DNA from: Planctomycetaceae bacterium
Lineage (GTDB): Bacteria; Planctomycetota; Planctomycetia; Pirellulales; PALSA-1355
NCBI GenBank assembly: GCA_003153375.1
Contig: PLYM01000213.1
Span: 190 to 64,189 of the forward strand
Direction: 5' to 3'
Length of the DNA: 64,000 bases
Shown here: in pieces, positions 10,249-31,985 of the stretch
Layout: the number at the start of each line of letters is the position of its first letter
Numbering within the stretch: the stretch's first letter is position 1
Notes under the pieces: generated by a model
Databases searched by the model: none
Seen by the model: the letters and a program-made list of their open reading frames with translations, nothing else
Told to the model about the DNA's origin: nothing
Translations under genes and position numbers: made by a program

Positions 10249-10303
10249 AACCGGTCCTTTCAGGCAACTTCCGTCAGGCGACCACGACCCTGTGGCCCCC
10301 CAG

Positions 10304-10325
10304 AAAAACCCCGCCCAGAGGCGGG
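10304..10325 (-). terminator. Terminator-like hairpin upstream of gyrA (minus strand CCCGCC-TCTG-GGCGGG-G-TTTTT)
   Basis: 6-bp GC stem followed by a T5 tract on the minus strand. Confidence 0.5.
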
Positions 10326-10530
10326 TCCCAGCAGAGAGAGAATTCTATCGGTTTGCCCCCCCGCCGACAACGCGTGATGGGCGGCGGGGGCTGTTTGTAA
10401 GTGCCCATGCCAGAGCGGTTTGCGAAGGGGGCCGCGGAGGTTGGATCAGCCACAGAGCAGCGGATCGTCGAGCCCCGCAAATTTCGCCCAGTTTGCCGCA
10501 GTTCCTAGTCGACGTTGGACGGTTGGGTGC

Positions 10531-10554
10531 CATGCCCACGCTCGCGTGGGCATG
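10531..10554. repeat. 10-bp perfect inverted repeat CATGCCCACG-CTCG-CGTGGGCATG
   Basis: Read directly. Confidence 0.75.
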
Positions 10555-10748
10555 CTTGTGAAGGGGGTGAGCAAGGTCGAGCCGGTACTGGAATTTCACC
10601 GGGCGGTAGAACGCACTTGGGTTTGTCGCGGGACGGCGACAGGTCGCTTGGGCACGGGCGATTCAGTCCTGTGCGGCAAGGTTTCGGTACAATAGTCGGT
10701 CCTGCGACGACGCAAACGTTCTCAATCGCACGAAGAAATGGATGCATC

Positions 10749-12515
10749 ATGTCAATGAGCTGGCGCGTAACACTTGAGACATTGCTCGCGCAATTCCAAA
10801 CTGCCGCTTCACGGTCTCAATGTCTGCACCACATGCTCGTGGAAGTTGCAGACGACGAACGTGACAAATTGACTGGTCCGGAATGGTTCAATCCGTACGA
10901 GAGTAAGATTCGCTTCGTGGATGGCCAGCCGCAGTATGGAAAATGGGACTTGTCCAAATCTACTTTTCTGCCCGGAATCAGTCCGGGCTTTCGAGAACCA
11001 AATCCGGACGAAAAGTTCGATGAAAAAGATTCCGGCAGGGTAGTGAAAGATCTGTCGGGCGTAGTTCGCGCAGTTAAAGTTCCGATGACGCTTCGCCAAG
11101 GATTCTATTGTGGCGTGGCGTCCGACATCGTTTCGTCCTTTGAGTCGTTGGCCGATGCGGCTGCGAGCGCGATCGCGGGATCGAGCAATCTTGATGAGCA
11201 CGTATTCGGCTCGGATCTAAGCGACATTTTTCGACATCCGCGAGGCGGTGTGCGTTACCTATTCGGTGACGTGCCAGTTGCTCCCGAACACTTTATCGCA
11301 CAGGGATGGCAAGCTGGAGTTCTGGCATTTCCGGCTGGTGTGCTGATTGACGTTCCGATATCTGAAAGTATGCCCAACGCAAGCAATTGGGTGCTCATGC
11401 TCCACCGACTGGGCTGGCGTCATGTGGATGGCAGCGCGCTAAGAGCACGACGGTTCGCTTGGGAGGGGACAACTGAAGTCGCGTTAGAGTTGCTCACTCA
11501 CGGCGAAGCGGGAAGTCTCGCTGGCGCGTCTGAGCGTTTCGCCAAAATCTCGCGATATTCCTTCTATTCTATTTTAGGCACAAAGGATGCGCCTCTAGAC
11601 GTAAATCTGGCGTCGGTATTCGCGATTCAGATGCTTTTGAGCGACCTATCGACAAAAGAGCCGCAGAAGGAGCAGGCGCGTGATGCCGCAGTCGATTACA
11701 CCAAAGAGAAGTGGAAGCACCTTGTATTGCCCGCGTTGCGCGTCGTCAATGAGGACGAGGCGCTCGAAGCATGCACGCCAAGAGTTGGGATTCTTGTCGC
11801 CACCGACGTGGAGAAGGACGCCGTCCTGAAGAAAATGCGGCCTCCGGCTAACAAGCGCGGAGTGTTGCAAGTTTATTCGGGACGCAACACCTACTATCTG
11901 GGGCGACTGGGCGTGACGAATGTGGTTCTCTGCATGACTGCCATGGGATCATCTGGAAGAGATGCATCAACTATCGTTACCGTTGAACTGATACAAGCGT
12001 GGAAACCGGCCGCAGTGATTATGGTGGGAATCGCATTTGGCAAAGACGCCACCAAACAGCGGATCGGAACGGTGCTTGTGTCGGACAAGGTTCTCTCCTA
12101 CGAGCAGCAACGCATTGGCAAAGACTCAAGCGAAGACCGTGGTAACGAACCATTAGCCGGAACGGTATTACTGAACCGATTTCGAAACGTCGTTGGATGG
12201 GATTTCAAATCACCGGACGGGCAGAAGTGTAGCTTCCAGGTGGGGCCGGTACTCTCGGGGGAAAAGCTTGTCGACAACGTCGAGTTCAAGAATAGCCTAT
12301 TCGATCGGTTCCCGACGGCAATCGGCGGTGAGATGGAGGGTGCAGGCGTGGCTGCGTCGGCTGCCCGGAATGGCTGCGAGTGGATTGTCGTAAAGGGAAT
12401 CTGTGATTGGGGAGATGGATCAAAAACGAAAGTGCACCAGGAGTTCGCAGCGGCGGCCTCTATCGACCTCGTTGAGCATGTTCTGAACCAATTGGGGGCT
12501 CTTGATTCACTGTAG
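10749..12515 (+). CDS. Protein with C-terminal PNP/MTAN-like nucleoside phosphorylase domain and an unassigned ~400-aa N-terminus
   Basis: C-terminal GILVATDVEKDAVLKKM, MTAMGSSGRDAS, GGEMEGAGVAASAARNGCEWIVVKGICDWGDGSK (MTAN-type EMEGA and catalytic-Asp region). N-terminus not recognised. Confidence 0.8.
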   Translation: MSMSWRVTLETLLAQFQTAASRSQCLHHMLVEVADDERDKLTGPEWFNPYESKIRFVDGQPQYGKWDLSKSTFLPGISPGFREPNPDEKFDEKDSGRVVKDLSGVVRAVKVPMTLRQGFYCGVASDIVSSFESLADAAASAIAGSSNLDEHVFGSDLSDIFRHPRGGVRYLFGDVPVAPEHFIAQGWQAGVLAFPAGVLIDVPISESMPNASNWVLMLHRLGWRHVDGSALRARRFAWEGTTEVALELLTHGEAGSLAGASERFAKISRYSFYSILGTKDAPLDVNLASVFAIQMLLSDLSTKEPQKEQARDAAVDYTKEKWKHLVLPALRVVNEDEALEACTPRVGILVATDVEKDAVLKKMRPPANKRGVLQVYSGRNTYYLGRLGVTNVVLCMTAMGSSGRDASTIVTVELIQAWKPAAVIMVGIAFGKDATKQRIGTVLVSDKVLSYEQQRIGKDSSEDRGNEPLAGTVLLNRFRNVVGWDFKSPDGQKCSFQVGPVLSGEKLVDNVEFKNSLFDRFPTAIGGEMEGAGVAASAARNGCEWIVVKGICDWGDGSKTKVHQEFAAAASIDLVEHVLNQLGALDSL

Positions 12516-12656
12516 ATCGTTTTTTGGACCGACTCGCATTTGTGGGCATTGCACTGACATGGTCGAGTGACGTGGCGCTTTTCGGGATGTTGCACGGGCG
12601 CGCGACTACGATGAAAGAAACGTGTTTGTGGCGAAACGGACTTAGGAGAGTTGACA

Positions 12657-13523
12657 ATGTTGGTGCAACGGGTGAAAACGACCGGCAGATTCTGGCTCGC
12701 AGGACTTGCAGTTGCCTGCGCGGGCCTGGCCCGGGCGGACGATGCCGAGTGGGCCATCTACGTGATGAAGGCGGATGGCAGTGCGGCGCGGCGGGTGTGT
12801 CGGGTGGAGGGGTTTTTGGCGCATGGTTCGGCCCGATGGTCTCATGATGGCAAGCGGCTGGCGTTTGATGTCAGTGGCGGGCCGAACGGGGCGCGGAAGA
12901 TTTTTGTGGTCGACGTGACGGGGGAGAGCTTGCGCGAGATCGGCGAGAACGCGGCCACGCCGGATTGGGCGCCGGACGACAAGCAGTTGATCTTCATGCG
13001 GTTCGGCGGCGAGCCGAGCACCTGGGTGCAGAATCTCGACGGCCAGGGACTGACGCGGCTGGCGGCGGCGACGTGCGCCCATTGGTCGGCTGACGGAAAC
13101 CAGATTCTGTTCATGGACGCGGCCGAGCGCAGCCTGTTGTCGCTCGACCTGGCCAGCGAAGATCAACGCGTGCTGCTGGAGGGGAAATATGCACGGATCG
13201 AGCCGGGCTTCGATTGGTCGCCCGACGCGAAGCGGGTGGCGATGATCGGCGTCTATCCGAACGACAGCCGCGAGCTGTTGATTCTCGAAGCCGACGGCAG
13301 CCAACGCGTCCGGCTCGACAAGGGTCGGCTCGAGGGGGCGGTCAGTTGGTCGCCGGACGGCAAGCGGCTGGCCATGTCGGTCGACTTCAAGGTTGTGATT
13401 CTCGACGCCGACGGCAACGCGCCGGCTGGCATCGTGCCGGGGCAGACCGGCCGCAGCACCGACCCGGCCTGGTCGCCGGATGGCAAGTGGCTGGTGTTCG
13501 GCAGCGATCGGGCGGCGGAGTAG
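12657..13523 (+). CDS. Secreted TolB/PD40-type beta-propeller protein
   Basis: Signal-like N-terminus; repeated WSxDGKRLAF / DWAPDDKQLIF / WSPDGKRLAM / WSPDGKWLVF blades. Confidence 0.8.
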   Translation: MLVQRVKTTGRFWLAGLAVACAGLARADDAEWAIYVMKADGSAARRVCRVEGFLAHGSARWSHDGKRLAFDVSGGPNGARKIFVVDVTGESLREIGENAATPDWAPDDKQLIFMRFGGEPSTWVQNLDGQGLTRLAAATCAHWSADGNQILFMDAAERSLLSLDLASEDQRVLLEGKYARIEPGFDWSPDAKRVAMIGVYPNDSRELLILEADGSQRVRLDKGRLEGAVSWSPDGKRLAMSVDFKVVILDADGNAPAGIVPGQTGRSTDPAWSPDGKWLVFGSDRAAE

Positions 13524-13658
13524 TTCGGCGCACGGCGCTCAAGGCGCCTTGGTCCGCGGCTAATTTGCTGCCGGCAGGGCTCTCGATTCATCCGGTGGGT
13601 TGGCGGGCAATTTCCCTGCAATTTCCCGGGTTTCCTCCGCTGTTGGGGGGCGAGGGAT

Positions 13659-13724
13659 GCCGAAACAATCGGCAGAACCGCACGAATAAAAGCTACCGAT
13701 CCGGTGGCTTACGCCTTTTGGTGT
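13659..13724 (+). other. Candidate structured 5' leader (three consecutive hairpins)
   Basis: GCCGA-AACAA-UCGGC; AAGCUACCG-AUC-CGGUGGCUU; ACGCC-UUUU-GGUGU. Confidence 0.4.
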
Positions 13725-13918
13725 GCTATTCGGCGCGCCCTGGCGGTCAGGTGACCTAGGTTTGGTCAAATCCCGCGTCCTACCGCTATTTTCCGCGCGC
13801 TATCCCACCAGCGAGTTGGCCCCCACGGGCGGCTTGCCGAACGAACCCCACGAATTCACGTTGCCCGGCCGCTGACGGTCACGGGCGATGTCACACCCCA
13901 GGGCAGAGATACCAAACC

Positions 13919-16900
13919 ATGTTTTCGAAATTCCGCTCAGGTCCAAAAAAGTCGAAGCCGTCGAAGAAGCCCGCCAAGCGTGCGCTGAATTTGGAACATT
14001 TGGAACGGCGGTTGGCCCTGACCTCGTTCGCGGTATTGAATCTCGACGACAGTGGCGCGGGCTCGTTGCGACAAGCGATGTTGGACGCCAATGCCAACGT
14101 GGGCGCCGACGTCATCGACTTCAACATCTCCGGCACGATTCTTTTGACCAGCGGCGCTCTGCCCACGTTGACCGACCAGGTGTCGATCGAAGGCAACACG
14201 GCGACCAGCTTCACGTCGTCGCCAGTGGTCGAAATCGATTGCAACGGCTTGGGCGGCCTGACGTTTGATTCCGGAGCGGCCGACTCGGCGCTCGTCTCGC
14301 TGGCCGTCGTCAACGCCAGCGGCAACGGCGTGACGCTCAACGGCGCGGGCGGCATGACGATCAGCGGCAATTACATCGGCATGGACCTCAACGGCTCGAC
14401 GATTGAAGCCAACGCGGGCAATGGCTTGGAGCTCGACGCTTCGAGCGGCAACACGATCGTCGGCAACCTGATCAGCGGCAACCAGGGCAGCGGCTTGCTG
14501 CTCGATGCGGCCAACAACAACATCATTACGACGAACCAGATCGGCACCAACTCGATCGGAATCTCGAAGCGCGGCAACCTGCAGAACGGCCTGTATCTCA
14601 CCGACGGTTCGCAGGGCAACACGATCGGCGAGGTGGGCGCGGGCAACACGATCTCGGGCAACGCCGGCCACGGCGTGCTGATCGCCGGCCTGGCCACCGC
14701 CAATACGCTGGGCGGCAACTTCATCGGCACCGATGTGACCGGCACATTGGCCCTGGGCAACAGCCTGGACGGCGTGGCCATCGTGAGCGCCAATGGGAAC
14801 GTGGTCGGACAGACCGATCCCACCTCAGGCGTGACCTATTACAACGCCAGCCTGGCCTCGCTCCAGCAGCCCGTCGCGACCTGGCAGGGCATTCGGGCAG
14901 CCGATTCGCCGGGCCAGTACCTGATCACCGGCACGACGGAGTCCCAGCAGGGGTTGTTGTTCGAAGGGACGATCGCGGGCGTGGGCACCTCGTACCTGGT
15001 CAATTTCCCGGACGCCGCCACCACGAGCGTCTACGGCCCCGACAACCTGGGCAACGGCAATCTGAACCTGGTCGGCAGCTACAAGAACTCCGACGCCAGC
15101 ACGGCGGATGTGAAGGTCAACGGCTTCTTGTTCTCGGGCACGACCGCCGACCTGTCGAACAGCGCCAACTATCAGACGATCGACCATCCGGGCGCCGAGT
15201 TCAACTATGTTCACAGCACGATGGGTGGACTGGTCGTCGGGAACTACGACAGCCAACCCGATCACGGCTTGGGCGGTCTGCCGCTGGGTCCGGGTCATGC
15301 TTACATTTACGACGCCAATACCCAGTCGTTCCTCACCGACGTCGTCTATCCGGGATCGGTGAGCAACACGGCCTATGGCATTTGGTACAACGGCGGCACC
15401 AGCTATACGATCGTCGGTAGCTATAGCGACGGCTTCGTCAACAACTTCGACGATCAAGGCTTGCCGATCGGCACGGCCTACATGGTCGACTACGACTCGG
15501 CCACCGGCGACTTCACGAACTGGGCTTCGTTCACCTATCCCGGCGGCTTGAATTTCGTGAGCCACTTCGACGGCATCAGCAGCGTGCAGCCGGGCGTCTA
15601 CACGCTGAGCGCCGACTCGGTGCAGATCGGCGGCGGCAGCAACCTGCTGCAGGGTTCGTTCGTGACCGTCACGCGGAATCAAGACGGCACGTTCGGTCCG
15701 GCCACGTGGGTGAATCTGAACTATCCGGGCATCGACCCCAGCACGACCATCGCCAGCTCGAACTCGGTGTACGGCAACCAGGCGGTCGGCGTGGTGTTTG
15801 GCGCCGGATCGCCCTTCTCGTTCCAGGCCACGGTGAACACCGGACCGCAATTGTCGAACGTGATCAGCGGCAACGGACTGAACGGCGTCGAGATCTATGG
15901 CGCCAACAACAACACGGTCGGCCTGAACTATATCGGCACCGACGTGACGGGTGCTGCCGACCTGGGCAACCTGGGCAACGGCATTCTGATGATGTATGCC
16001 GCCCAAGGAAACACCATCGGCGGCAGCGGTCTGAGCAACACGATCTCGGGCAACGATTGCCACGGCATCCTGGTGACCAACGGCGCCACGGCCAACACCG
16101 TCGCCAGCAACTTCATTGGCACCGATGCGACGGGCACGGCCACGATTGGCAACGGCATCGACGGCGTGGCGATCGTCAGCGCCAGCGGCAATACGATCGG
16201 CAACATCAACCCGGTCACGAGCGTCGTCTACAACACGGCCGCCGAGGCCAGCCAGGTGAACCCCGTCAGTGGCTGGCAAGGCATTCGCGAATCGGACACG
16301 GCCGGTCAGTACCTGATGACGGGCACCTCGGGTTTGAACGGCTTGTTGTTCGACGGCACGATGGCCGGCGATGGCACGTCCTACCTGGTCAACTACCCGA
16401 ACGCGTACAGCACGAGCGTTTATGGCCCCGACAACCTGGGCAGTGGCAACCTTCGCCTGGTTGGCAGTTACCGCAACTCGGACTACACCACGGCGTCGGT
16501 AGCCGTCAACGGCTTTGTGTTCGAGGGCACGACCGCCAATCTGGGCGATCCCGACTACTATCGCACGATCGACTATCCGGGTGCCAAGTACAACTTCATC
16601 CACAGCACCGCGGGCGGGCTGGTGGTGGGCAACTACGACAGCTCGGCCAACGTGGACGGCACCGACGTGCCGCTGGGCGCCGGCCATGCGTTCCTTTATG
16701 ACCTGGCCACCGCCACGTTCCTGCCCGACGTGGTCTATCCGGGCTCGATCAACGATACGGCCTATGGCATCTGGTACAACGGCGGCACCAGCTATACGAT
16801 CGCCGGCAGCTATACCATTCCGAGCGGCCAACAGACGCTGGCCAGCGCGTACCTGGTCGACTACGACTCGGCCACCGGCACCTACTCGAACTGGACCTCG

Positions 16901-19075
16901 TTCACCGATCCCAGCGGCAGCAACCTGCTGACGCACTTCCAAGGCATCAGCAGCACGGAGAAGGGCGTCTACACGATGGCGGCCGACTCGGTGCAGGCCG
17001 GCACGGGGATTCCGACGCAAGGCTCGATCGTCACCGTAGTGCGAAATGCCGACGGCTCGTTCGGCCCGGCTTCGTGGGCCAAGCTCAACTATCCGGGGCT
17101 CGATCCGAGCACCTATCTGACCAGCAATGACTCAGTGTATGGCAACCAGGTGGTGGGCATCGTGATCGGCGGAGGCACGACCTTCAGCTATCAGGCCACG
17201 GTCAACACCGGCTTCCAGTTGTCGAACGTGATCAGCGGCAACGTCGGCAACGGCATCGGGCTGTATGCGGCCAACGACAACCAGATCGCGATGAACTATA
17301 TCGGCACCAACATCACCGGCACCGTCGATTTGGGCAATGGCGGCAACGGCATGTTGCTGATGTACGGCTCGGCCAACAACACGATCGGCGGCGAGGCCAC
17401 GGGCGGCAACAACCCGACCGGCGGCGACGATACGGCCGACATCGTGATCGCGCGGCCGCCGATGGGCAACCTGATCTCGGGCAATGCCGTCGACGGCATC
17501 TACATGACCGGCCAGGCGACCGGCAACCTGCTGGTCGGCAACTTCATCGGCACCGACGCCTCGGGCAATGTGGCCCTGGGCAACAGCGGCGACGGCGTGG
17601 CGCTGTTCGAGGCCGATGGCAACACGCTCTTGGGCTGCAACTTCGAGCAGGATCCGTTCGTGTTCTACAACGTGATCAGCGGCAACGGCGGCAACGGTCT
17701 GACCGTGAACAATTCGGACGACACGACGATTCAGGGCAACTTTTTCGGCATGGGCGCCAACAATGCGACCCGGGTAGGCAATGCCGGCGACGGCGTGTTG
17801 GTCGAGGGCGACTCGGCCCACACGGTGATGGGCGGACCGATTCCGCTGGGCAACGTTTCGGCCGCCAACGGCGAGAACGGCGTCGAGGTGCGCGACACGG
17901 CCAGCGACTTCACGACGTACAACACCTTCACCGGATTGGCCGCGTTCTCCGACGTGACGACTTACGGCAACGACGGCGACGGCATGCTGATCACCACGAG
18001 CGGCGCCGGAATCCTGATTCGCACTTGCATCGTCACGTCAAACGGTGGAAACGGTATCGAACTTGGCGGCGAGGCCAACGGCGTGCGCGTGGCCGGCAAC
18101 CTGATCGGTGTGTATGCCGACGGCACGACCGGGATGGGCAACCAGGGTAATGGTGTGGCGATTACCGGGGACGCTCACGACAACATCATCGGCGGACCGC
18201 AGCCGACGTTCAACGTGGTTCCGCACAACGTCATCTCGGACAACACCCTGAACGGCGTGGCGATTCTGGACACCGCGCACGACAACACGGTGAATTTCGG
18301 CTTCATCGGCACCGTGTTGAATGGCACGCAGGCTCTCGCCAACGGCGGCGACGGCGTGCTGGTCGACGGCGGCACTTCCAACGCGATCGGCTCGACCGAT
18401 TCGACGCTGCCCACGGTGATCAGCGGTAACAGCGGCGACGGTGTCGAGTTGATGAACACCAGCGGCAACACGGTGCAGGGCACGATGATCGGCACCGACT
18501 CGCTGGGCGTCACGAACGTCGGCAACGGTGGCAGCGGCATCCATATCCTCAACGGTTCGAACAACACGATCGGGCAGGCGCTCAGCGTGCCGCCGAACTC
18601 GCAATCGGTGTCGACGCCTCCGAGCGACACGCCGGCGGTTCCGGGCAATACGATTGCCTTCAACGGCGCCGCGGGAGTGGCCATCGACTCGGGTCTCGAT
18701 AATGGCATCCATCAGAACTCGATCTTCAACGTCAATACGCTGGGGATTCTGCTGGGACAGGGGGCCAATCACAATCAAAATACCCCCAATCTGCTGTCGG
18801 CTCACCAACTGTCGAACAGCGTCCAGGTGTCGGGCACGTTGAATTCCGCGCCCAATAGCGTCTACACGCTCGAGTTCTATGCCAGTCAGGGTAGCGGTAC
18901 GATTGGCAGGACCCCGATCGGCTACCAGGCGGTGCGCACTAACGCGGCTGGCTTCGCCGCGTTCTCGTTCTATGGATCGAAGCCGGGGCCCAGCGAGACC
19001 TTCATCACCGCCACGGCGACCGACGTGGACCAGAACACCTCGGAGTTTTCGAACTACGTCTCGTCAGTAATCTAA
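13919..19075 (+). CDS. Giant extracellular parallel beta-helix repeat protein with planctomycete LEPR-like N-terminal motif
   Basis: LEHLERRLALT at N-terminus; DDSGAGSLRQAMLDAN; many NTIGG...ISGN...IGTD repeats. Confidence 0.9.
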   Translation: MFSKFRSGPKKSKPSKKPAKRALNLEHLERRLALTSFAVLNLDDSGAGSLRQAMLDANANVGADVIDFNISGTILLTSGALPTLTDQVSIEGNTATSFTSSPVVEIDCNGLGGLTFDSGAADSALVSLAVVNASGNGVTLNGAGGMTISGNYIGMDLNGSTIEANAGNGLELDASSGNTIVGNLISGNQGSGLLLDAANNNIITTNQIGTNSIGISKRGNLQNGLYLTDGSQGNTIGEVGAGNTISGNAGHGVLIAGLATANTLGGNFIGTDVTGTLALGNSLDGVAIVSANGNVVGQTDPTSGVTYYNASLASLQQPVATWQGIRAADSPGQYLITGTTESQQGLLFEGTIAGVGTSYLVNFPDAATTSVYGPDNLGNGNLNLVGSYKNSDASTADVKVNGFLFSGTTADLSNSANYQTIDHPGAEFNYVHSTMGGLVVGNYDSQPDHGLGGLPLGPGHAYIYDANTQSFLTDVVYPGSVSNTAYGIWYNGGTSYTIVGSYSDGFVNNFDDQGLPIGTAYMVDYDSATGDFTNWASFTYPGGLNFVSHFDGISSVQPGVYTLSADSVQIGGGSNLLQGSFVTVTRNQDGTFGPATWVNLNYPGIDPSTTIASSNSVYGNQAVGVVFGAGSPFSFQATVNTGPQLSNVISGNGLNGVEIYGANNNTVGLNYIGTDVTGAADLGNLGNGILMMYAAQGNTIGGSGLSNTISGNDCHGILVTNGATANTVASNFIGTDATGTATIGNGIDGVAIVSASGNTIGNINPVTSVVYNTAAEASQVNPVSGWQGIRESDTAGQYLMTGTSGLNGLLFDGTMAGDGTSYLVNYPNAYSTSVYGPDNLGSGNLRLVGSYRNSDYTTASVAVNGFVFEGTTANLGDPDYYRTIDYPGAKYNFIHSTAGGLVVGNYDSSANVDGTDVPLGAGHAFLYDLATATFLPDVVYPGSINDTAYGIWYNGGTSYTIAGSYTIPSGQQTLASAYLVDYDSATGTYSNWTSFTDPSGSNLLTHFQGISSTEKGVYTMAADSVQAGTGIPTQGSIVTVVRNADGSFGPASWAKLNYPGLDPSTYLTSNDSVYGNQVVGIVIGGGTTFSYQATVNTGFQLSNVISGNVGNGIGLYAANDNQIAMNYIGTNITGTVDLGNGGNGMLLMYGSANNTIGGEATGGNNPTGGDDTADIVIARPPMGNLISGNAVDGIYMTGQATGNLLVGNFIGTDASGNVALGNSGDGVALFEADGNTLLGCNFEQDPFVFYNVISGNGGNGLTVNNSDDTTIQGNFFGMGANNATRVGNAGDGVLVEGDSAHTVMGGPIPLGNVSAANGENGVEVRDTASDFTTYNTFTGLAAFSDVTTYGNDGDGMLITTSGAGILIRTCIVTSNGGNGIELGGEANGVRVAGNLIGVYADGTTGMGNQGNGVAITGDAHDNIIGGPQPTFNVVPHNVISDNTLNGVAILDTAHDNTVNFGFIGTVLNGTQALANGGDGVLVDGGTSNAIGSTDSTLPTVISGNSGDGVELMNTSGNTVQGTMIGTDSLGVTNVGNGGSGIHILNGSNNTIGQALSVPPNSQSVSTPPSDTPAVPGNTIAFNGAAGVAIDSGLDNGIHQNSIFNVNTLGILLGQGANHNQNTPNLLSAHQLSNSVQVSGTLNSAPNSVYTLEFYASQGSGTIGRTPIGYQAVRTNAAGFAAFSFYGSKPGPSETFITATATDVDQNTSEFSNYVSSVI

Positions 19076-19141
19076 CGGTAAGCGGCGCGATCGGCACTCA
19101 AACGCCGATCGCGCCCATCCGTTCGGCAAACGGCGATCCCG

Positions 19142-19585
19142 TTACGACCGCGACTTGTCGCGGGTCTGGCGTTCGATGGTGGCGCGGAGTTGTTCTTCGT
19201 GCTCGCGCAGCTCGGGCGTGGCCGCGTCGCCGAAGTCCTCGATGCCAAAGACAGGGCGAATCTCGATTTCGCCGTCGGTGAGCATGGGGTTGGGACAGCG
19301 CTTGACCCACTCGATGGCCTCGGCCAGTGACTTCACATCCCACATCCAGAAGCCGGCGACCAGTTCCTTGGTTTCGGCAAAGGGGCCGTCGATGACGGTG
19401 CGACTCTTGCCGGAGAAGCGGACGCGTGCGCCCTGGGAGCTGGGCTTCAGCCCGTCGCCCGAGAGCATGATGCCGGCTTTGACCAGCTCTTCATTGAACT
19501 TGCCCATGGCTTCGAGCAATTCCTGGGTTGGCAGTACGCCGGCTTCCGAATCCTTGGTGGCTTTGACCATGACCATGACTTTCAT
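19142..19585 (-). CDS. YCII/DGPF-domain protein
   Basis: MKVMVMVKATKDSEAG...VIDGPFAETKELVAGFWMWDVKS. Confidence 0.88.
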   Translation of the reverse strand: MKVMVMVKATKDSEAGVLPTQELLEAMGKFNEELVKAGIMLSGDGLKPSSQGARVRFSGKSRTVIDGPFAETKELVAGFWMWDVKSLAEAIEWVKRCPNPMLTDGEIEIRPVFGIEDFGDAATPELREHEEQLRATIERQTRDKSRS

Positions 19586-19741
19586 TGTCGTATCTCCCGT
19601 GGTTGAAGGTGTGGTGGCGCTGGCCTGATAAGCGGCTGGAGCGCGAGTTTGTCGAAATCACGATCGGGGTCGAACGCGGACGTGCGCGATCGACAGCTTG
19701 GGTCTTGTGCTAATGCTTCTTCGAATGGCGCTGGCGCCGGG

Positions 19742-20146
19742 TTAGGTGCGCCAGGGGACCAGGGCCCGCAGCCGCGGGTCGCGGAGGTAGAGTCCGCCCC
19801 ACAGCAGCGCGCCGAACACGACGGGGAAGAGGATGGCGAACCATCCCTCGCTGAGGCGCACGTGGCTGGCCACGGCCCCGCCCAGATAGCCGGTGAGCAG
19901 AATCGCTCCGAGCACCGCCGTTTGAGGAATCAGGTAGAGAATGGTAATCACGGTGACGACGATGCCCAGGGGGACGATGCAGCTTTCGGGATAGCCGATC
20001 TGGACGGTGCCGTCGATCACGAACTGCGGCTTGACGACTTTCATCACGCCGTCGAGCAGCATGAACGCCGCCGGCAGCAGGCTCATCACCCATCCGCCCC
20101 AGAACATCGCTTTGGAGTTGCCGGCCGTTTCGGGATTCGCGTGCAT
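19742..20146 (-). CDS. DoxX-like membrane protein
   Basis: Four hydrophobic helices; YLIPQTAVLGAILLTGYLGGAVASHVR. Confidence 0.7.
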   Translation of the reverse strand: MHANPETAGNSKAMFWGGWVMSLLPAAFMLLDGVMKVVKPQFVIDGTVQIGYPESCIVPLGIVVTVITILYLIPQTAVLGAILLTGYLGGAVASHVRLSEGWFAILFPVVFGALLWGGLYLRDPRLRALVPWRT

Positions 20147-20225
20147 GGTTCGTTCTCCAAAAATGCAGGGGCCAAAATGCGGGGGACAGGATGCCTTAGT
20201 TTAACGCGGCGCCAGGATGTGGCTA

Positions 20226-20582
20226 TCAGGCCTCGGCCAGGCCGGGCAGCTCCATGACGGGGCGCACTTCGACCGTGCCCTTGCGTGCGCCGGGGATGCG
20301 GGCGGCGATGCCGATGGCCTCATCGAGATCGCGGGCTTCGACCAGAAAGTATCCGCCCAGTTGCTCGCGGGTTTCGGCAAACGGACCGTCGGTCACTTGT
20401 CGCTTGCCGCCGCGAATTCGCACGCTGGTGGCCGAGGCCACGGGGTGCAAGGGAGCGGCCCCCAGGTAGTGGCCGCCAGCGTGCAGGTCGTGCGTCAACT
20501 GCGTCGACTCGAGATAGCAGTGCTCGCGTTCGTCGTCGGTCCAGGCGTTTTCGTCGCTGTAGATCAGCAGCATGTATTTCAT
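20226..20582 (-). CDS. YCII/DGPF-domain protein
   Basis: MKYMLLIYSDENAW...VTDGPFAETREQLGGYFLVEARDLDEAI. Confidence 0.9.
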   Translation of the reverse strand: MKYMLLIYSDENAWTDDEREHCYLESTQLTHDLHAGGHYLGAAPLHPVASATSVRIRGGKRQVTDGPFAETREQLGGYFLVEARDLDEAIGIAARIPGARKGTVEVRPVMELPGLAEA

Positions 20583-20692
20583 GGCTTCTCTCCCCAGATT
20601 ATTCAGATGGTTGGTCCTGCGGATGTCCTCTGCAACGTAGTCGATTGGCGGCGGCGGGAATCGACAGCGTAGCCGATATCGTGACGATTTTT

Positions 20693-21934
20693 TTAACCCA
20701 GCTCCTGCAAACGCCTTGCCAGAAACCGTCGCTCAGGCTCCTGACGGGCCAGGTCCAGGGCACGCTGATAGGAAGCTTGGGCCTCGCGGCTATTGCCCTG
20801 CCGCCGGCACAGATCGGCCCGGGCGGCGTGGGCCAGATGATAGTCGGCCAGGTCGCCGCTGGCCAGGATGGCGTCGATGAGGGCGACGCCGGCCGCGGGG
20901 CCATCGCGCATCGCCACGGCCACCGCGCGATTCAGCTCGACGATCGGCGAGGGTTCGGCCCGGGCGAGTAGCTCGTAGAGCGCGGCGATTCGCGACCAAT
21001 CGGTCGCGGCGGCGCTGGGCGCGGCGGCGTGGACGGCTGCGATGGCGGCTTGGATCGTATAGACGCCCACGTTGCGCGACGCCAGGGCTTGCTCCACGAG
21101 CGCTCGGCCCTCGGCGATTTGTTCGCGATTCCACAGTGCGCGGTCCTGGTCCTCGAGCAGCACGATGTCGCCCTCGGCGGTCGATCGCGCGGCACGCCGC
21201 GACTCTTGCAAGAGCATCAGCGCCAGCAGGCCAACCGCTTCGGGGTCAGGTAGCAATTCACAGAGCAGGCGTCCGAGTCGGATCGCTTCCAGCGACAGCT
21301 CGCTGCGGGTCACGCTCTCGCCGGATGATGCCGAGTAGCCCTCGTTGAACACCAGGTAGATCACCGACAACACCGAATCGATTCGATCGGGCAGGTCGGC
21401 GATTGACGGCACCTGGTAGGGGATCTTGGTGTCGCGAATCTTGGCCTTGCCGCGCACGATGCGCTGGGCGATCGTCGAGGGAGTGGTCAGGAAGGCGGCC
21501 GCAATCTCCTCGGTCTTCAGCCCGCACACTTCGCGCAGCGTGAGCGCGACCTGCGCTTCGGGAGCTAGCGCCGGGTGGCAGCAGGTGAAGATCAAGCGCA
21601 GCCGGTCGTCTTCGATATCCTCGGCTTCGTCAGGCGGCGAGGATTGGTCGATTTCGCGAGCGATGCTCTCGAGCGAGGCGTCGAACCGCGCGCGGCGGCG
21701 CACGGTGTCGATGGCCTTGAAGCGCCCGGCCGAAACCAGCCAGGCACGCGGGTTCGCGGGCACGCCCTCGCGCGGCCACTGTTCGATGGCGACCACGAAC
21801 GCTTCGTGCAACGCTTCTTCCGCCAGATCGAAATCGCCCAGCAGGCGGATCAGCGTGGCGAGCACGCGCCGCGACTCCGAGCGATAAATGTCGGCCAGCG
21901 CTTGGCGCGTTTGCTCGGCGTTGGGTTCGCTCAT
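20693..21934 (-). CDS. ECF42-like RNA polymerase sigma factor with long C-terminal extension
   Basis: Sigma2/sigma4 regions (LIRLLGDFDLAEEALHEAFVVAIEQWP, LREVCGLKTEEIAAAFLTTPSTIAQRIVRGKAKIR) plus a ~200-aa C-terminal extension. Confidence 0.9.
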   Translation of the reverse strand: MSEPNAEQTRQALADIYRSESRRVLATLIRLLGDFDLAEEALHEAFVVAIEQWPREGVPANPRAWLVSAGRFKAIDTVRRRARFDASLESIAREIDQSSPPDEAEDIEDDRLRLIFTCCHPALAPEAQVALTLREVCGLKTEEIAAAFLTTPSTIAQRIVRGKAKIRDTKIPYQVPSIADLPDRIDSVLSVIYLVFNEGYSASSGESVTRSELSLEAIRLGRLLCELLPDPEAVGLLALMLLQESRRAARSTAEGDIVLLEDQDRALWNREQIAEGRALVEQALASRNVGVYTIQAAIAAVHAAAPSAAATDWSRIAALYELLARAEPSPIVELNRAVAVAMRDGPAAGVALIDAILASGDLADYHLAHAARADLCRRQGNSREAQASYQRALDLARQEPERRFLARRLQELG

Positions 21935-22081
21935 GGGGGAAATCCTGCATGCTCCGCGTGATGTTTGACCCTCAAACTAGCCCGAAGCGCCAGCGAGGGA
22001 AAGTGCCGCGTGCCGTTGGAGGCGTTACGCGCCCTTGCTTGCGCTGCGGGTTAGTGGGAAGGAGGTTGGTGGGAAGGGGGC

Positions 22082-23728
22082 TTAGCGGAAGAACCAACAC
22101 ATCCCAAGCGTGCAGGCGATGAGGGTGGCGGCCCACAGGCGGTCGTTTTGCCACCATTGGCGGGGAGTGATGGCGTCGACGCGCGGCTCTTGTTGGTAGC
22201 GCGACCAGGTGAAGTGCTCGCGGTCGGGGTCGCGCTCGCTCTGGGTGGCCAGACTGACGACGATCAGCACGACGTAGCAACCGACCGTGGCCAGGCCGGC
22301 GCGGTGAAAGGCTTGCAGCGTGTGCTCGAAGCCGTAGGAGGCGCCCTGGTCGAAGAGGATCGACAGGATCGGTCCGGCGAGGATGCAGACGAACGACGCG
22401 GTGCGCGTGATCAGCGGTTGCAGGATGCCGGCGACGTAGGCCACGATAACGCCCGGCACCAGGTAGGCGTTGAAGTCGGCCATGCGGTTGAAGATGCCGC
22501 CCTTGGTTTGACCGAAGTACAACGACAGCGCGATGGCCGTGCCCACCATGACCATCATCGCCGCCCGGCCCGTCCAGATGAGCCGCATTTCCGAGGCTTC
22601 GGGGCGGATGTATTTCTTATAGATGTCGAACGTGAACAGCGTGGCGGTGGAGTTCATCATCGAGTCGATCGTCGAGAGAATTCCCGCGGCCAGCCCGGCC
22701 ATCACGATGCCCACCAGGCCATAGCCCGCGGGCAGCAGGGTGCGCGTCAGCCCGGCGAAGGCCGTGTCGCTTTCGGTGGCTGGATCGATGGCCAGGATGT
22801 AGCCGGCGGCCATGCCGGGCACGATGCAGAGGAAGGGGATCAGCAGCTTGAGGAAGCCGGCGGCGATCGTGCCCATGCGGGCGTCCCAGTCGCTGCGGGC
22901 GCCGAGCGTGCGCTGCACGATGAACTGATTAGTGCCCCAATAATAGAGGTGCAGCACCATCAGGCCGCTGAGCACGCCGCTCCAGGGAAGCTCGGGATGG
23001 CTGGCTTCGAAAAAGACGTGGAACTTTTCGGGCTGCTTTTCCAGCAAGCCCGAGAGTCCGCCGACGTCGGGATGCCAAATGGCCAGCACGGCCAACAATC
23101 CGCTGCTGACCAGCAGCAGCACGCTTTGCACGACGTCGTTGAAGATGTCGGCCTTCAACCCGCCGTACATCGTGTAGGCGGCGGCCACGACGGCCATCAG
23201 CACGACGGCCATCTCATAGCTGATCGCGTAGGGCGAGTCGGCCGTGAGCGTGGCCATGGTCAGCGCGCCCAGGATCATCGTGCCCACCATCTGAATTAGC
23301 AGGAAGGCCATGTTGGTGATCGAATACACCAGCCGGCTGCGATCGTCGAACCGCCGGCCCAGATACTCCGACAGCGTATAGAGCCCCATGCGGCGATAGA
23401 GGGGCAGAAAAAAGTAGCACAGCGTCAACAAGCCGAAGATGGCGCCGAACTCGAAATTCGCCTGGGCGAAGCCTTCCTTCAGCCCCGCGCCCATCATGCC
23501 CACCATGTGGTGCGAGCTGATGTTGGTGCCAAAGATCGAACCCGCCACGGCCCACCAGGCCACGGTCTTGCCCGCCAGATAATAGTCGCTGGTGCTCTCC
23601 TCCTTGCGACCGATCCACATGCCAAACAGCGTCACCCCAATGATGCTGCCCGCCAGAATCGCCACATCCAGCCCCTGCATGGGCACGCTGGCCGATTGAG
23701 CCAAGAGATTCAGAGTCGACGCGGGCAT
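22082..23728 (-). CDS. Sodium:solute symporter (SSS family)
   Basis: DYYLAGKTVAWWAVAGSIFGTNISSHHMVGMMGAG; multiple TM helices. Confidence 0.9.
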   Translation of the reverse strand: MPASTLNLLAQSASVPMQGLDVAILAGSIIGVTLFGMWIGRKEESTSDYYLAGKTVAWWAVAGSIFGTNISSHHMVGMMGAGLKEGFAQANFEFGAIFGLLTLCYFFLPLYRRMGLYTLSEYLGRRFDDRSRLVYSITNMAFLLIQMVGTMILGALTMATLTADSPYAISYEMAVVLMAVVAAAYTMYGGLKADIFNDVVQSVLLLVSSGLLAVLAIWHPDVGGLSGLLEKQPEKFHVFFEASHPELPWSGVLSGLMVLHLYYWGTNQFIVQRTLGARSDWDARMGTIAAGFLKLLIPFLCIVPGMAAGYILAIDPATESDTAFAGLTRTLLPAGYGLVGIVMAGLAAGILSTIDSMMNSTATLFTFDIYKKYIRPEASEMRLIWTGRAAMMVMVGTAIALSLYFGQTKGGIFNRMADFNAYLVPGVIVAYVAGILQPLITRTASFVCILAGPILSILFDQGASYGFEHTLQAFHRAGLATVGCYVVLIVVSLATQSERDPDREHFTWSRYQQEPRVDAITPRQWWQNDRLWAATLIACTLGMCWFFR

Positions 23729-23900
23729 GGAAGGGTTCTCCGCCTGGGGGAAAGCAGCGTGTTAAATCTAGCGAGCGCGGCGGCCCAGCGGAATGGAGGA
23801 TCAGACCCGCGCGGCAATCACTTGCATCGGCCGATGCTGCGTGCGACCATGAAAACCGATGGTCATGGCCGTTTTCTTGCCCGAGCAGACCGGAGGCAGC

Positions 23901-24899
23901 ATGAAGCTTCAGCGCCGAGAGTTTACGCGGGCAGGTGCGTGTTGGTTGGCGTCGCTCGCGGCGCGGCCGCTCGTGGCGGGGGCCGATCCGCCGGCCGATG
24001 CTGCGCCGGCGCCGCGCGTGGTGCACAGCTGGGGCACCAACGGCAACGGCGACGGGCAGTTCGATATTCCGATCGCGATCGTGATCAATCCTCAGGACGA
24101 GCTGTTGATCACTGACTTTCGACAGAAGGACGCGGCGGCCAAGGCCCGATTGCAGCGTTTCGATCCCCAGGGTCGGTTTCTCGGAGCATTCGAAATGCAG
24201 CCGATGCCCGGCGGACTGGCGCTGGACAAGGAAGGGCTGCTGTATGCCACGCACATGATGCGGCACAAGGTGACCGTCTCCGACCAGCAGGGCAAGTTGA
24301 TTCGCGAATTTGGCAAGCAGGGAACGGCGCCCGGCGAATTCGAGCAGCCGGGCGGGATTGTGTTTGGTCCGGACGGATCGCTGTATGTGGCCGACCAGGT
24401 GAATCGGCGCGTGCAGCGACTGACGCCGCAAGGCGAGCCGATCAGCGCTTGGGGCCGCTATGGCGTGCAGCCGGGCGAGTTCGGTGGCAACACGTCGCCG
24501 AAGTCGCGCGTCGGCGGTCCGCACTTTCTGGCCTTCGACAGCCAAGGCCATCTCTATACGACCGAAGGCTCAGTCGGGCGCGTGCAAAAGTTCAAGGACG
24601 ACGGCAGCTTCGTGCTGGCCTGGGGCGACAACCAACAAGGCCCCGGCCATTTCGGCAGCCCCTCAGGTCTGCAAGGCCCGATCGGCATCGCCATCGACGC
24701 GCGGGACGAAGTTTGGGTCAGCGCCACCAACCACCTCGTGCAACAGTTCACCACCGACGGCCTCTACGTGCGCGGCCTGGGCGGCGAAGGCGCCGAACTT
24801 GGCCAGTTCAAAACCCCCCACGGCCTGGCCTTCGACAGCCAAGGTCATTTGTACGTGCTCGATTCGCGCAACTCGCGGGTGCAGAAGCTGGCGGTGTGA
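23901..24899 (+). CDS. Secreted NHL-repeat protein
   Basis: N-terminus MKLQRREFTRAG; repeats such as GQFDIPIAIVIN, GEFEQPGGIVFGPDGSLYVADQVNRRVQ, GQFKTPHGLAFDSQGHLYVLDSRNSRVQKL. Confidence 0.85.
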   Translation: MKLQRREFTRAGACWLASLAARPLVAGADPPADAAPAPRVVHSWGTNGNGDGQFDIPIAIVINPQDELLITDFRQKDAAAKARLQRFDPQGRFLGAFEMQPMPGGLALDKEGLLYATHMMRHKVTVSDQQGKLIREFGKQGTAPGEFEQPGGIVFGPDGSLYVADQVNRRVQRLTPQGEPISAWGRYGVQPGEFGGNTSPKSRVGGPHFLAFDSQGHLYTTEGSVGRVQKFKDDGSFVLAWGDNQQGPGHFGSPSGLQGPIGIAIDARDEVWVSATNHLVQQFTTDGLYVRGLGGEGAELGQFKTPHGLAFDSQGHLYVLDSRNSRVQKLAV

Positions 24900-25128
24900 G
24901 GGGGTGGCGAAAGTCCACGACTCAACTGGCAGCGCGGCGGCTCGCTACAACCGCTACGCGCGGAATCAGGAGACCGGTGACCAAGCGCGCCGAGGTTAGT
25001 GGTGGGGTTGTTTGCGGAGATTGCGTAAAAATTCCGGCTCCCGTTCGCCGATAGTTGATTGTGATAGCGCCGTGGGCTCAAGGAGGCTCGCGGATTTCAT
25101 CAACGGTTGCGGTGAGCTGAGCAATTCC

Positions 25129-27351
25129 ATGAAGCGAGAGCAGGACGCGATCAAAGTCGGGGTTGGTGGGGTGGGTGCAGGTGGGTTGGCGGGCGCGTTC
25201 CGCGGACCGTGGCTGTGGGCTGCGTTGTTGGTCTTGCTGACGACGATCGTCTATTGGCCAACGCTGGCAAACGGATTTGTTTCGGACGACAGGTATCACG
25301 TCGTCAATAACATCTCCCTGCGGTCGCTCGGGGGTCTATGGGATATTTGGTTCAAGCTGGGCACCATCCAGCAGTATTATCCGCTGACCCATAGCGCCTT
25401 CTGGGCGCAATTTCAACTTTGGGGGCTCGATCCGCGCGGCTATCACGTGGTGAATTGGCTGCTGCACGGCATCGGGGCCGTGTTGGTTTGGCGGTTGTTG
25501 TTGCGGCTGGAAGTGCGCGGGGCCTCGCTGGCCGCGGCGGTGTTTGCCGTCCACCCGGTACACGTCGAAAGCGTGGCCTGGGCCAGCGAATTGAAGAACA
25601 TCCTGTCGTTGGACCTGGCGCTGGTGTCGCTGCTGACCTATTTGCGGTTTTCGCCACCACTCAGGTCCGAACAGGCAGCCCACGAAGCGGCGTCGGGCCA
25701 AGCGCGGTGGTCCTGGTATGCGTTGGCGTTGGCTTGTTACGTGGCGGCGCTGCTCTGCAAGTCCGTCACGGTCAGCGTTCCGGCGGTGCTGCTGGTGATC
25801 GACTGGTGGAAGCGAGGGCGCATTGCGCGTCGCGACGTGGCGGCACTCGTTCCGTTCTTTGTCGCCGGGCTGTCGCTGGCCGTGCTGACGATTTGGATGG
25901 AAAAGACGTTTGTCGGCGCGAGCGGCCAGGAATTCGAGCTATCGCCGATCGAGCGCGTGCTGATCGCCGGACGGGCGTTATGGTTCTATGCCGGCAAGCT
26001 GATCTGGCCGGCGTCGCTCGTGTTCTACTATCCGCGTTGGACAATGGACGCCGGCGTGTGGTGGCAGTACCTGTTTCCCGCGGCGGCGCTGCTCGCCCTC
26101 GGCGTGTTGTGGATGGCTCGCTCGCGAATGGGTCGCGGGCCACTTGCCGCGGCGCTGATCTTCGCCGGAGTGCTCGTGCCGGCGCTGGGCTTCATCAACG
26201 TCTACCCGTTTCGCTTCTCGTTCGTGTCCGATCATTATCAATACCACGCCAGCATCGCGTTGATTGCCCTGGCGGCAGCGGGCGCGGCCTGGCTGGGAGA
26301 TCGACTTTCCCAAACTCGGCCTGTCTTGGTTCCCATGGCCGTTGCGGGATTGCTGCTTTCGCTGGTCGTGGTTTCGCTGGAACAGGTGCCCGTGTATCAC
26401 GATGCGGTCACGTTGAATGCCGACATTGTCGAGCACAACCCCGATTGCTGGGCGGCACACCATAACCTGGGGGTCGCCTTTCAATCGCTGGAACAATACG
26501 ACCTGGCTCTGACCTACTTCAATCGGGCGATCGAGGTTTTTGGCCGGCTGGCCACGGCGAGCCCGACGATTGGCAGCTATCGCAATGACCAGGCCGCGGA
26601 TCTGGTCAACGTCGGCTTCTTGCAGCGCAAATTGGGGCGAGTGGCGGAATCGGACAGCGCGTTTCGGCGAGCTATCGCGGTTCGCGAGACGCTGGTCCGC
26701 GACTTTCCTAGTGCGATCGAATATCAAGAAGGGCTTGCCCGCTGTTACGTTAATCTCGCGATCGCGCGACAGATGAGCGGTGATGCGGCGGATGCCGCCG
26801 TCTGGCACCGCCAGGCGATCGCGGCTCGCGAGCAATTGGTTCGCGAGTATCCCTCCGTCGCTCGCCACGCCGATGGCCTGGCCACGAGCTATGGCGATTT
26901 GGGTCAAGCGCTATGCGACGCGGGGCAATTCTCGGAGTCGGAGGCGACGCTTCGCCAGGCGATCGAATTACGCGAGCGGTTGGTGCGCGAGAATGCCGCC
27001 GAGAGCGATTTTCGCGAGCGTCTGGCTTGGAGTCACGGGCAACTGGCCCAGGAGCTGCTGCGGGACGGTCGCCCTACTGAGTCGGAAGCCTCGCATCGAC
27101 GAGCGCTCGCCATCCGCGAGCAACTCGTTCGCGATAATCCTGGAGTCAGCAAGTATCGGTACCAGGTAGCCCTCAGTTCGGTCGACGTCGGACTCGCGCA
27201 ACGCGAAACCGGGCGACAGGCCGCTGCCGCCGACTCGATCTCGCTGGCGCAGACGATTTGCGAACAGCTCGTGCGCGACTATCCCACCGTGAGCGAGTAC
27301 CGGGAAAGCCTGGCCTGGTGCCAATCTCATCGCGAGCCGCAAGGTCGTTAG
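25129..27351 (+). CDS. Multi-TM glycosyltransferase-like protein with C-terminal TPR repeats
   Basis: N-terminal membrane half (YWPTLANGFVSDDRYHVVNN, YHVVNWLLHGIGAVLVWRLL, VHPVHVESVAWASELKNILS) then TPR-like repeats. Confidence 0.8.
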   Translation: MKREQDAIKVGVGGVGAGGLAGAFRGPWLWAALLVLLTTIVYWPTLANGFVSDDRYHVVNNISLRSLGGLWDIWFKLGTIQQYYPLTHSAFWAQFQLWGLDPRGYHVVNWLLHGIGAVLVWRLLLRLEVRGASLAAAVFAVHPVHVESVAWASELKNILSLDLALVSLLTYLRFSPPLRSEQAAHEAASGQARWSWYALALACYVAALLCKSVTVSVPAVLLVIDWWKRGRIARRDVAALVPFFVAGLSLAVLTIWMEKTFVGASGQEFELSPIERVLIAGRALWFYAGKLIWPASLVFYYPRWTMDAGVWWQYLFPAAALLALGVLWMARSRMGRGPLAAALIFAGVLVPALGFINVYPFRFSFVSDHYQYHASIALIALAAAGAAWLGDRLSQTRPVLVPMAVAGLLLSLVVVSLEQVPVYHDAVTLNADIVEHNPDCWAAHHNLGVAFQSLEQYDLALTYFNRAIEVFGRLATASPTIGSYRNDQAADLVNVGFLQRKLGRVAESDSAFRRAIAVRETLVRDFPSAIEYQEGLARCYVNLAIARQMSGDAADAAVWHRQAIAAREQLVREYPSVARHADGLATSYGDLGQALCDAGQFSESEATLRQAIELRERLVRENAAESDFRERLAWSHGQLAQELLRDGRPTESEASHRRALAIREQLVRDNPGVSKYRYQVALSSVDVGLAQRETGRQAAAADSISLAQTICEQLVRDYPTVSEYRESLAWCQSHREPQGR

Positions 27352-27391
27352 AGACGGTCACGGTTGCGGGCTGGGCAACAGACGCGATGCA

Positions 27392-29560
27392 TCAGTTGGC
27401 GTCGTCCTTGAACAGCGCTTCGTTGGCGCCGGCCTTGCCTTCGAACAGGGTCTCGATGTTGATAATCTGGTTCTTTTCGACCGTGGCGTTGCTGATGTAG
27501 TCGGAAACGAACTGGTGGCGAGGGTCGCGGCGGAAAGCGATCAGTTCTCGCATCGCCTGCCGCGCCTGCGCGAGCTTCTTTGGGTCCTTGGGTGCCGAGC
27601 CGCGTTCGGCGCCGGGGCTCTCGAAGTCGAGGAACTCCTGGAGCCGAGTGGACAGGAGGGCGTGCCGCAGTCCGGCCTGCAGAAACTCGACGCGCTGGGC
27701 AAACTCAGGCGAGGGATCCTTTCTCGCGGTCTCGAGAGCTTTGGCCAGGATCGCCTCGGCGGGACGGTAGACCTCGGGCGGATAAGCCAGGTAATGCCCG
27801 CGAATCCGTTTCAGCCTTTCCAAGGCGCCCTTGGGATCGACGCTGATGTCTCGGACGGGCGGCCGCGTGGCGGCGTAGTTTTCCCAATAGTCGAAATATT
27901 GTTGGACGTCGGCGGCGGCAGGCCCGAACGCGGAAAAATACTCCTGCCGAATCGTTTCGATCTCCAGATCGGGGCTCCACAGCAGGCGATGGTGCATGTA
28001 GGCCATCGGTCCATGAGCGGCCCAACTGAAGGTGTAGGCACGAAGGCTGATGCCGGCCATGCCGTGTTGATAGGCGAAGCGGAAGAATTCTCCGCTCTGC
28101 CGGCTGGTGATGTTGGGCGTTACGTAGCTGTTCAATAAGTAGTTGGATCCGTTGACCAGCGACATGCCGGTCTGGCTCCAGGCCAGCCATTGGTCGCGAT
28201 ACCACTGGTCTTCCTCACGGCTCATCGGATACCAGCCATCGCGCGATCCGTAGATGACGAACTCTCCAAAAATGTTTTTGTCGAGCTTGATTCCGCTGAG
28301 CGGCCCCGGCAGGGTGTTGTGATAGAGATAGACGCCGATCTTTACCCGCGGGTTGCGCTCGACGGCCAGGTCATGCACCGCTTTCCAATAATGGGCATAG
28401 CGATCGCCCATGGCTCGCGGGGTGTATTTCAGGAGTCGAAAGTCCTCGGGGAAATCGGTGGGCTGCGGACCGTCCCAGGCCAGGCATTGCGGGCATTGGC
28501 ACATGCTCTCGCCCCCGGCGTCGGCTTCGCCGAGGGTCAACACATCGCCGCCGTCCCAGGCCTTGTTCACGATCGCGTGCTGCAACTCGACGTTGGAAAC
28601 GCAGAGCGGAGTCCAGGCGCCGGCGCGGGGCGTCTTGAGTCCGCGCTGGCCGTCGGCGCGCATGGCAAACCACTCAGGATGTTGCTGGCCATACTCGGCC
28701 CACCAATCAGTGATGCCGGCGATGACGTGCGAGCCCAGGATCACGCGCGGCTGCTCGATTTGCGTCACGCGGCGATGTCGGCGATGGAAGATCTCCACGG
28801 CCTTGCCATAGGTGTAGCCGGCCTGCTCGCTGGGAAACACGAGCTTGCTGACGACCTCTTCCGACAGCCCGCCGACCTTATAGTTGCGCGGCACTTTGCG
28901 GCCGAAGTAGGAGCCGGTCAGGAAAATTTGCCCCAGATCCCATCCGCCCAGATTGCGGTAGAGCAGCTTGGGTTTGACGGTCTTGTTGACCGCGGGAAAC
29001 ACGGCACTCGTTCGACGCGGCACATAGGTTCCCAGTTCGCCCGGCCAGAGCCAGCGCACGCCGAGATGATCTTCCAACAATTCGTACACGCCCAGCAACG
29101 TCCCGCTGTGTACGCACTCCATGGCCAGCGGATTCCACGGCTCCGAGTAGAGCGGTCGGGTGCCGTGATACTGATCGGGCAGCAGTTCTTTGCCGACGAT
29201 ATACAAGTCGTTGCCGACAGTGCGCAGCACGTACTCTTCGACCTCGAGCTGGTCGGCATCGATGCCTTGCTGGCGGGCGGCCTCGCTGACGCCGATGAAG
29301 ATTCGGCGGTCGTAGCCCGCGGGGATCTCCGTTTCCACGGCGACCGGCAATTGCTGGCCGGTGGCTTTCTTGACGTGGCTGATCAGTTCCTCGGCGGCAT
29401 AGGCGGCGACCGGCGACGGTTTGACCGCAGTGACTACCACGGCGCGGGCCTTGCCGTCGCGCACGAGGGTGACTTGCGAGAAGGCCGCGTCCTCACCGGT
29501 GCGGAGAGACAATGCAGCGAGCGCTATCAGGAAGATTGCGAGGCGGATCAGGCGGGTCAT
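27392..29560 (-). CDS. DUF4838-type secreted protein (glycoside-hydrolase-like)
   Basis: AAYAAEELISHVKKATGQQLPVAVE, HSGTLLGVYELLEDHLGVRWLWPGELGTYVP; start set at MTRLIRLAIFLIALAALSL. Confidence 0.8.
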   Translation of the reverse strand: MTRLIRLAIFLIALAALSLRTGEDAAFSQVTLVRDGKARAVVVTAVKPSPVAAYAAEELISHVKKATGQQLPVAVETEIPAGYDRRIFIGVSEAARQQGIDADQLEVEEYVLRTVGNDLYIVGKELLPDQYHGTRPLYSEPWNPLAMECVHSGTLLGVYELLEDHLGVRWLWPGELGTYVPRRTSAVFPAVNKTVKPKLLYRNLGGWDLGQIFLTGSYFGRKVPRNYKVGGLSEEVVSKLVFPSEQAGYTYGKAVEIFHRRHRRVTQIEQPRVILGSHVIAGITDWWAEYGQQHPEWFAMRADGQRGLKTPRAGAWTPLCVSNVELQHAIVNKAWDGGDVLTLGEADAGGESMCQCPQCLAWDGPQPTDFPEDFRLLKYTPRAMGDRYAHYWKAVHDLAVERNPRVKIGVYLYHNTLPGPLSGIKLDKNIFGEFVIYGSRDGWYPMSREEDQWYRDQWLAWSQTGMSLVNGSNYLLNSYVTPNITSRQSGEFFRFAYQHGMAGISLRAYTFSWAAHGPMAYMHHRLLWSPDLEIETIRQEYFSAFGPAAADVQQYFDYWENYAATRPPVRDISVDPKGALERLKRIRGHYLAYPPEVYRPAEAILAKALETARKDPSPEFAQRVEFLQAGLRHALLSTRLQEFLDFESPGAERGSAPKDPKKLAQARQAMRELIAFRRDPRHQFVSDYISNATVEKNQIINIETLFEGKAGANEALFKDDAN

Positions 29561-30419: not shown

Positions 30420-30567
30420 TAGCGGGCGGATCTCCGCACTCCAGGGGCCGTCATGGCTGCCACGAAAGGTTGGCATCCGGGGCGCCGGCATCGTAAACTA
30501 TCGTTCCGACGCGTAGGACGCAGGGCGGCGTTGACGATCGGGTTCGCTGGGGCGCGGAGAACTTACC

Positions 30568-31953: not shown

Positions 31954-31985
31954 GTGCCCGGGACAATCCTCTTTAAGGAGCCCTC

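Follow-up and report, generated by a model that had tools for sequence, protein, structure and literature searches.

A GC-poor planctomycete gene joining a nucleosidase domain to a module shared with a TIR protein: a candidate single-gene sensor-effector

A GC-poor gene in the window (the whole stretch of 64,000 nucleotides that was analysed) encodes a protein, P0001, in which a nucleosidase of the PNP/MTAN fold follows a long N-terminal part. It raises a key question: is P0001 a housekeeping nucleosidase with an odd extension, or an immune effector that carries its own control module? The latter was proposed in a preliminary description of the locus, made from the sequence alone. The features considered below are listed in Table 1.

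Table 1 Positions of the P0001 gene, its parts and surrounding features in the window
Feature	Residues	Position	Strand	Remarks
Coding sequence of P0001 (N-module, linker and PNP/MTAN-fold nucleosidase)	588 aa	10749..12515	+	Open reading frame intact
N-module	5-297	10761..11639	+	Common to the TIR protein (L008) and the full-length PNP relative (L057); 47% identity with L057
Linker	298-342	11640..11774	+	Poorly conserved: 22% identity with L057 vs 47% and 55% on the flanking parts
PNP/MTAN-fold nucleosidase domain	343-588	11775..12512	+	PF01048 match; GIAFG and GGEMEG clade; 55% identity with L057
E355	355	11811..11813	+	Aligned to E. coli MTAN E12
E530	530	12336..12338	+	Aligned to E. coli MTAN E174
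D553	553	12405..12407	+	Aligned to E. coli MTAN D197
Inverted repeat, arms		10531..10541 and 10544..10554		CATGCCCACGC-NN-GCGTGGGCATG
Segment between gyrA and mrdA		10249..43090		32.8 kb
mrdA, mreB, mreC, lnt		43090..49756		Order and orientation as in relatives

The nucleosidase domain and its kinship

The C-terminal PNP/MTAN-like module recognised earlier is real: PNP_UDP_1 (PF01048) matches residues 345-572 (E 2.6e-16; 60.2 bits vs a cut-off of 25.1), and both EMEGAGVAA and VKGICDWGDGSK lie inside the domain. Alignment to E. coli MTAN revealed that P0001 possesses counterparts of all three residues that we take to be the catalytic acids of that enzyme, E12, E174 and D197. The catalytic Asp, whose loss would have counted against the idea of an immune effector, is therefore retained as D553, alongside E355 and E530. 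The best PDB sequence matches are MTANs. However, the score of P0001 against the NCBIfam MTAN equivalog (66.3 bits) is far below the cut-off of 169, indicating a member of the superfamily and not a standard MTAN. The PADLOC PNP effector model was also matched (63 bits), but the housekeeping E. coli MTAN, used as a control, reached 54.6 bits on the same model; the match was therefore rejected as evidence and given no weight.

In the tree, the PNP domain of P0001 fell apart from E. coli MTAN, in a clade of seven with a support of 100/100 (100/99 when G311 was left out). The other members are PNP domains from Bacteroidota (L005, L006), the R. etli plasmid pA (L012), the genomes G311 and G031, and contig C263 of the same genome as P0001. 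The motifs G(I/V/M)AFG and GGEMEG are common to the members. Since the root was placed by midpoint only and the E. coli MTAN branch is long, the tree informs on how the clade members are related, but not on where the clade came from. The R. etli and Bacteroidota domains are 37-41% identical to that of P0001, but the extra regions of these proteins (N-terminal in R. etli, C-terminal in Bacteroidota) were unrelated to the N-terminal part of P0001 in BLAST and hhalign comparisons.

An N-terminal module joined to PNP or TIR

What, then, precedes the nucleosidase? Residues 1-340 gave no match in Pfam, NCBIfam, PADLOC or PHROGs, and a profile of three sequences found none in PDB; in these searches, the N-terminus thus matched no metabolic family. 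The preliminary description had left some 400 aa unassigned; the absence of a family match stands, whereas the true size is about 300 aa, here called the N-module, plus a linker of 45 aa. Structure prediction with AlphaFold2 yielded pLDDT values of 33.8 for residues 1-341 alone and 35.6 for the whole protein with two relatives, too low for a usable model.

The N-module was found in three proteins only: P0001, L008 and L057. In L008, a protein of the planctomycete genome G203, the N-terminus matches the module with 26% identity (E 2e-15), and the Smith-Waterman score of 171 compares with 34 +/- 5 (maximum 64) for shuffled sequences. A TIR_2 domain (residues 289-412, E 2.9e-17) follows in place of PNP. 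L057, from the genome G1024, is a protein of 608 aa with the same two-domain architecture as P0001 and 48% identity end to end over 588 aa. The identity between the two is distributed as two conserved blocks around a free linker (Table 1), which marks out two domains, both under constraint. The N-termini of the relatives align from residue ~3-5 of P0001, backing the chosen start codon. Other, weak matches to the N-module were rejected: L009 and L010 sit within unrelated genes (cobalamin-type) or span them, L011 is close to a region of iron-sulphur type without a matching two-domain protein, and L015 and L047 overlap with genes that are read from the other strand.

These fusions, with TIR in one genome and PNP in two others, lend strength to the earlier suggestion that the N-terminal part may be a new sensory or regulatory module. 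Destruction of NAD is a common and well-established activity of TIR effectors (PMC7159879). Because the same module is fused to such an NADase-type effector in another planctomycete, the N-module probably serves to control effectors that destroy nucleotides and can be exchanged for one another, PNP or TIR. One module joined to either enzyme suggests a switch whose output is the loss of an essential nucleotide.

Composition, distribution and surroundings of the gene

The P0001 gene has a GC content of 54.1% and a GC3 of 57.6%, compared with 64.8 and 87.2% for gyrA and 66.4 and 82.8% for the beta-propeller gene on its other side. It is the stretch of lowest GC among all stretches of 1767 nt in the window (mean 63.2%, sd 2.2), bearing out the foreign composition that had been suspected. 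The other N-module genes are likewise poorer in GC than their surroundings, with 58.2 vs 70.0% in G1024 and 60.2 vs 66.3% in G203.

The source assembly comprises 6.7 Mb in 291 contigs. At E 0.001, no relatives were detected in the one other genome of the genus or in the two family genomes. A scan of 248 genomes of the order revealed no second carrier of the N-module, the matches outside the own genome being confined to the PNP domain. One other genome with a convincing N-module (G203) was found among 395 sampled genomes of the phylum, and one more (G1024, from another family) among 189 of the class. In 299 sampled Bacteroidota genomes no match held up, and nothing convincing was found in plasmids, phages and viral contigs. 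As the scans covered samples and used a loose first filter, this rarity is approximate. The homologues are thus sporadic and not vertically conserved, being absent from the genus and family genomes examined and from the rest of the order sample. Completeness and contamination are 89% and 6% for G203 and 81% and 4% for G1024; the contigs of both could therefore be misassigned, although each protein is intact. The scarcity of the gene, together with its low GC in three unrelated genomes, suggests mobile defence of a kind that searches based on islands would overlook.

As originally described, the gene stands alone between gyrA (minus strand) and a PD40 beta-propeller gene (plus strand). Its counterparts adjoin oxidoreductase-like genes in G203 and lexA, a deacetylase and an accD-like gene in G1024 (names mostly assigned by eye from the sequence), and no obvious operon partner was seen in any of the three genomes. 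In G1024, an upstream frame ends just before the first possible start of the gene (7537/7538), so that co-transcription with that gene could occur. No defence-island setting, for which a check of the homologues had been proposed, was seen: at all three loci, the N-module gene is surrounded by housekeeping or ordinary genes.

In the three nearest relatives (G001, G002 and G003), gyrA is followed by mrdA within 0.2-0.45 kb, and then, in G002 and G003, by mreB, mreC and lnt; the G001 contig ends inside mrdA. The window has the same row of genes from mrdA to lnt, separated from gyrA by a segment that is absent at this site in those relatives and has the P0001 gene as its first gene. Either the segment was inserted in this genome or the relatives have lost it. 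The remaining genes in it are of ordinary kinds (sigma factor, symporter, sulfatase, beta-lactamase family, TPR) and their GC3 is mostly native, so that the segment is not a defence island. At 25012-27351, it also encodes a protein of 779 aa with C-terminal TPRs and an N-terminus of ~470 aa without assignment.

An inverted repeat of 10 bp had been noted ahead of the gene. The repeat exists and is perfect, with arms of 11 bp, but it is not specific to the gene: the genome contains 9 copies of the element and 0 of a reversed control pattern. We therefore regard it as a dispersed genomic element, irrelevant to the gene.

Proposed role and relation to known systems

We propose, with a probability of roughly 0.6, that P0001 is a horizontally mobile single-gene sensor-effector, in which the N-module controls swappable PNP or TIR effectors and the PNP domain destroys (d)ATP on invasion. 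The N-module would hold the enzyme off and would recognise a sign of invasion, possibly by phage, either directly or via a host factor. The signal would then pass across the short divergent linker to the nucleosidase, which, once active, would split off the base of a plentiful adenine nucleotide; this would most likely be (d)ATP, converted into adenine and a ribose-triphosphate. The loss of the nucleotide would halt the infected cell. That the N-module senses infection, and does so alone, we infer from the absence of a partner in the three genomes.

No described system was matched in the family libraries or in the available literature, which did not include the original Detocs paper. In Detocs, PNP effectors convert ATP into adenine and ribose-5'-triphosphate, and in CBASS and further systems such effectors break down (d)ATP (PMC11249213, PMC10952713). 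Detocs DtcC (PADLOC PDC-M60C; response regulator and PNP) has a PNP-fold effector with the same catalytic acids as P0001, but the two PNP domains are only ~25% identical. Moreover, Detocs is a three-gene two-component system with a receiver domain, whereas Pfam detected no receiver domain in P0001, and its neighbours, gyrA and the propeller gene, are not DtcA/DtcB-like. A control locus on an Agrobacterium plasmid (L026, 5506-12358) displayed all three Detocs-like parts, PDC-M60A/B/C; judging from the make-up of sensor, response regulator and receiver-PNP, PDC-M60 presumably represents Detocs. This locus is preceded by an HNH-PNP-EAD7 protein.

The PNP effectors of CBASS (Cap17, SLOG-PNP) resemble P0001 in that their PNP domain is C-terminal and preceded by an additional region, but this N-terminus is of SLOG type and an oligonucleotide cyclase is encoded next to them. 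No cyclase gene adjoins the P0001 gene, and Pfam found no SLOG domain in residues 1-340. The PNP domain of P0001 does match such effectors in CBASS operons of Klebsiella and Acinetobacter plasmids (SLOG assigned from PMC10952713 and our reading of the sequence), although the CBASS effector PNP is ~24% identical and falls outside the P0001 clade. Within the clade, at 40% identity, is the PNP domain of a PNP-NB-ARC-TPR protein of G311 (L048/L055; 926 aa in L055), where it is N-terminal and followed by STAND NTPase and TPR-like parts. With NB-ARC/NACHT recognised by domain match and the TPR-like C-terminus by eye, this architecture is that of an NLR-like immune receptor. In P0001, by contrast, Pfam detected no STAND/NB-ARC/NACHT NTPase domain.

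Known PNP effectors are run by partner genes (a cyclase or a two-component sensor) or by large NTPase receptors. If the proposed role is true, a single polypeptide coupling the N-module to PNP or TIR would constitute a minimal immune switch with a new effector controller. More tentatively, and at somewhat less than even odds, the N-module may represent a class of invasion-sensing control modules not described before, providing one-gene immunity with PNP acting on ATP or TIR on NAD and dispensing with a STAND NTPase, a cyclase or a two-component partner.

Other explanations have to be weighed against this one. The N-module might be an adaptor that brings its effector to a core component of immunity whose gene lies elsewhere in the genome, in the manner of effector-associated domains (EADs), which are defined by one module fused to several effector domains (PMC7159879), and the PNP-EAD7 protein of the Agrobacterium plasmid provides a precedent. 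We consider this unlikely: EADs are small and have a second copy on the core component, often in an adjacent gene (PMC7159879), whereas the N-module is much larger (~300 aa), was found with no homotypic partner and with no convincing further copy in its own genome, and lacks an obvious partner gene beside it in the three genomes. Less likely still is a PNP domain that, instead of depleting ATP, produces a second messenger from a nucleotide or regulates a nucleotide pool. Release of a base as the source of a signal has been proposed for PNP-superfamily domains in conflict systems (PMC7159879), but later work on Detocs and CBASS reported destruction of ATP (PMC11249213, PMC10952713), and no downstream responder gene adjoins any of the three N-module genes.

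The position of the gene at the edge of a segment missing from the nearest relatives could also mean that it is not an anti-phage gene but was carried in by a mobile element as a single-gene toxin or addiction-like cargo. This is improbable, as no antitoxin-like partner, integrase or transposase was seen beside the gene and the rest of the segment consists of ordinary genes. The least probable explanation is a housekeeping nucleosidase that acts on MTA/SAH (or a related substrate) and has acquired an unusual regulatory extension. The conserved MTAN acids and the MTAN matches in PDB agree with it, but not the sporadic occurrence, foreign composition and absence from the nearest relatives, the position in the tree apart from E. 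coli MTAN, the presence of the N-module on a TIR protein, or the existence of other PNP-superfamily genes in the genome.

Several further PNP genes were encountered. In the own genome (L029:1925-3382, contig C263) and in G031 (L002:825-2409), a PNP gene of the P0001 clade is accompanied by a conserved adjacent gene; the partner proteins (214-215 aa) are 31% identical and without Pfam, PADLOC or plasmid matches, and the C263 partner is unrelated to the N-module. We regard this pair as a candidate two-gene PNP system. Contig C45 of the own genome (L040:9-1016) encodes a PNP protein of 335 aa with a short C-terminal extension, adjoining a HAD-like gene. Finally, G085 (L056, 4827-11617) contains a cluster that, by eye, encodes PNP, nucleotidyltransferase-like and radical-SAM-like proteins and one of 1002 aa, the last seemingly combining glycosyltransferase, trypsin-like protease and PNP domains.
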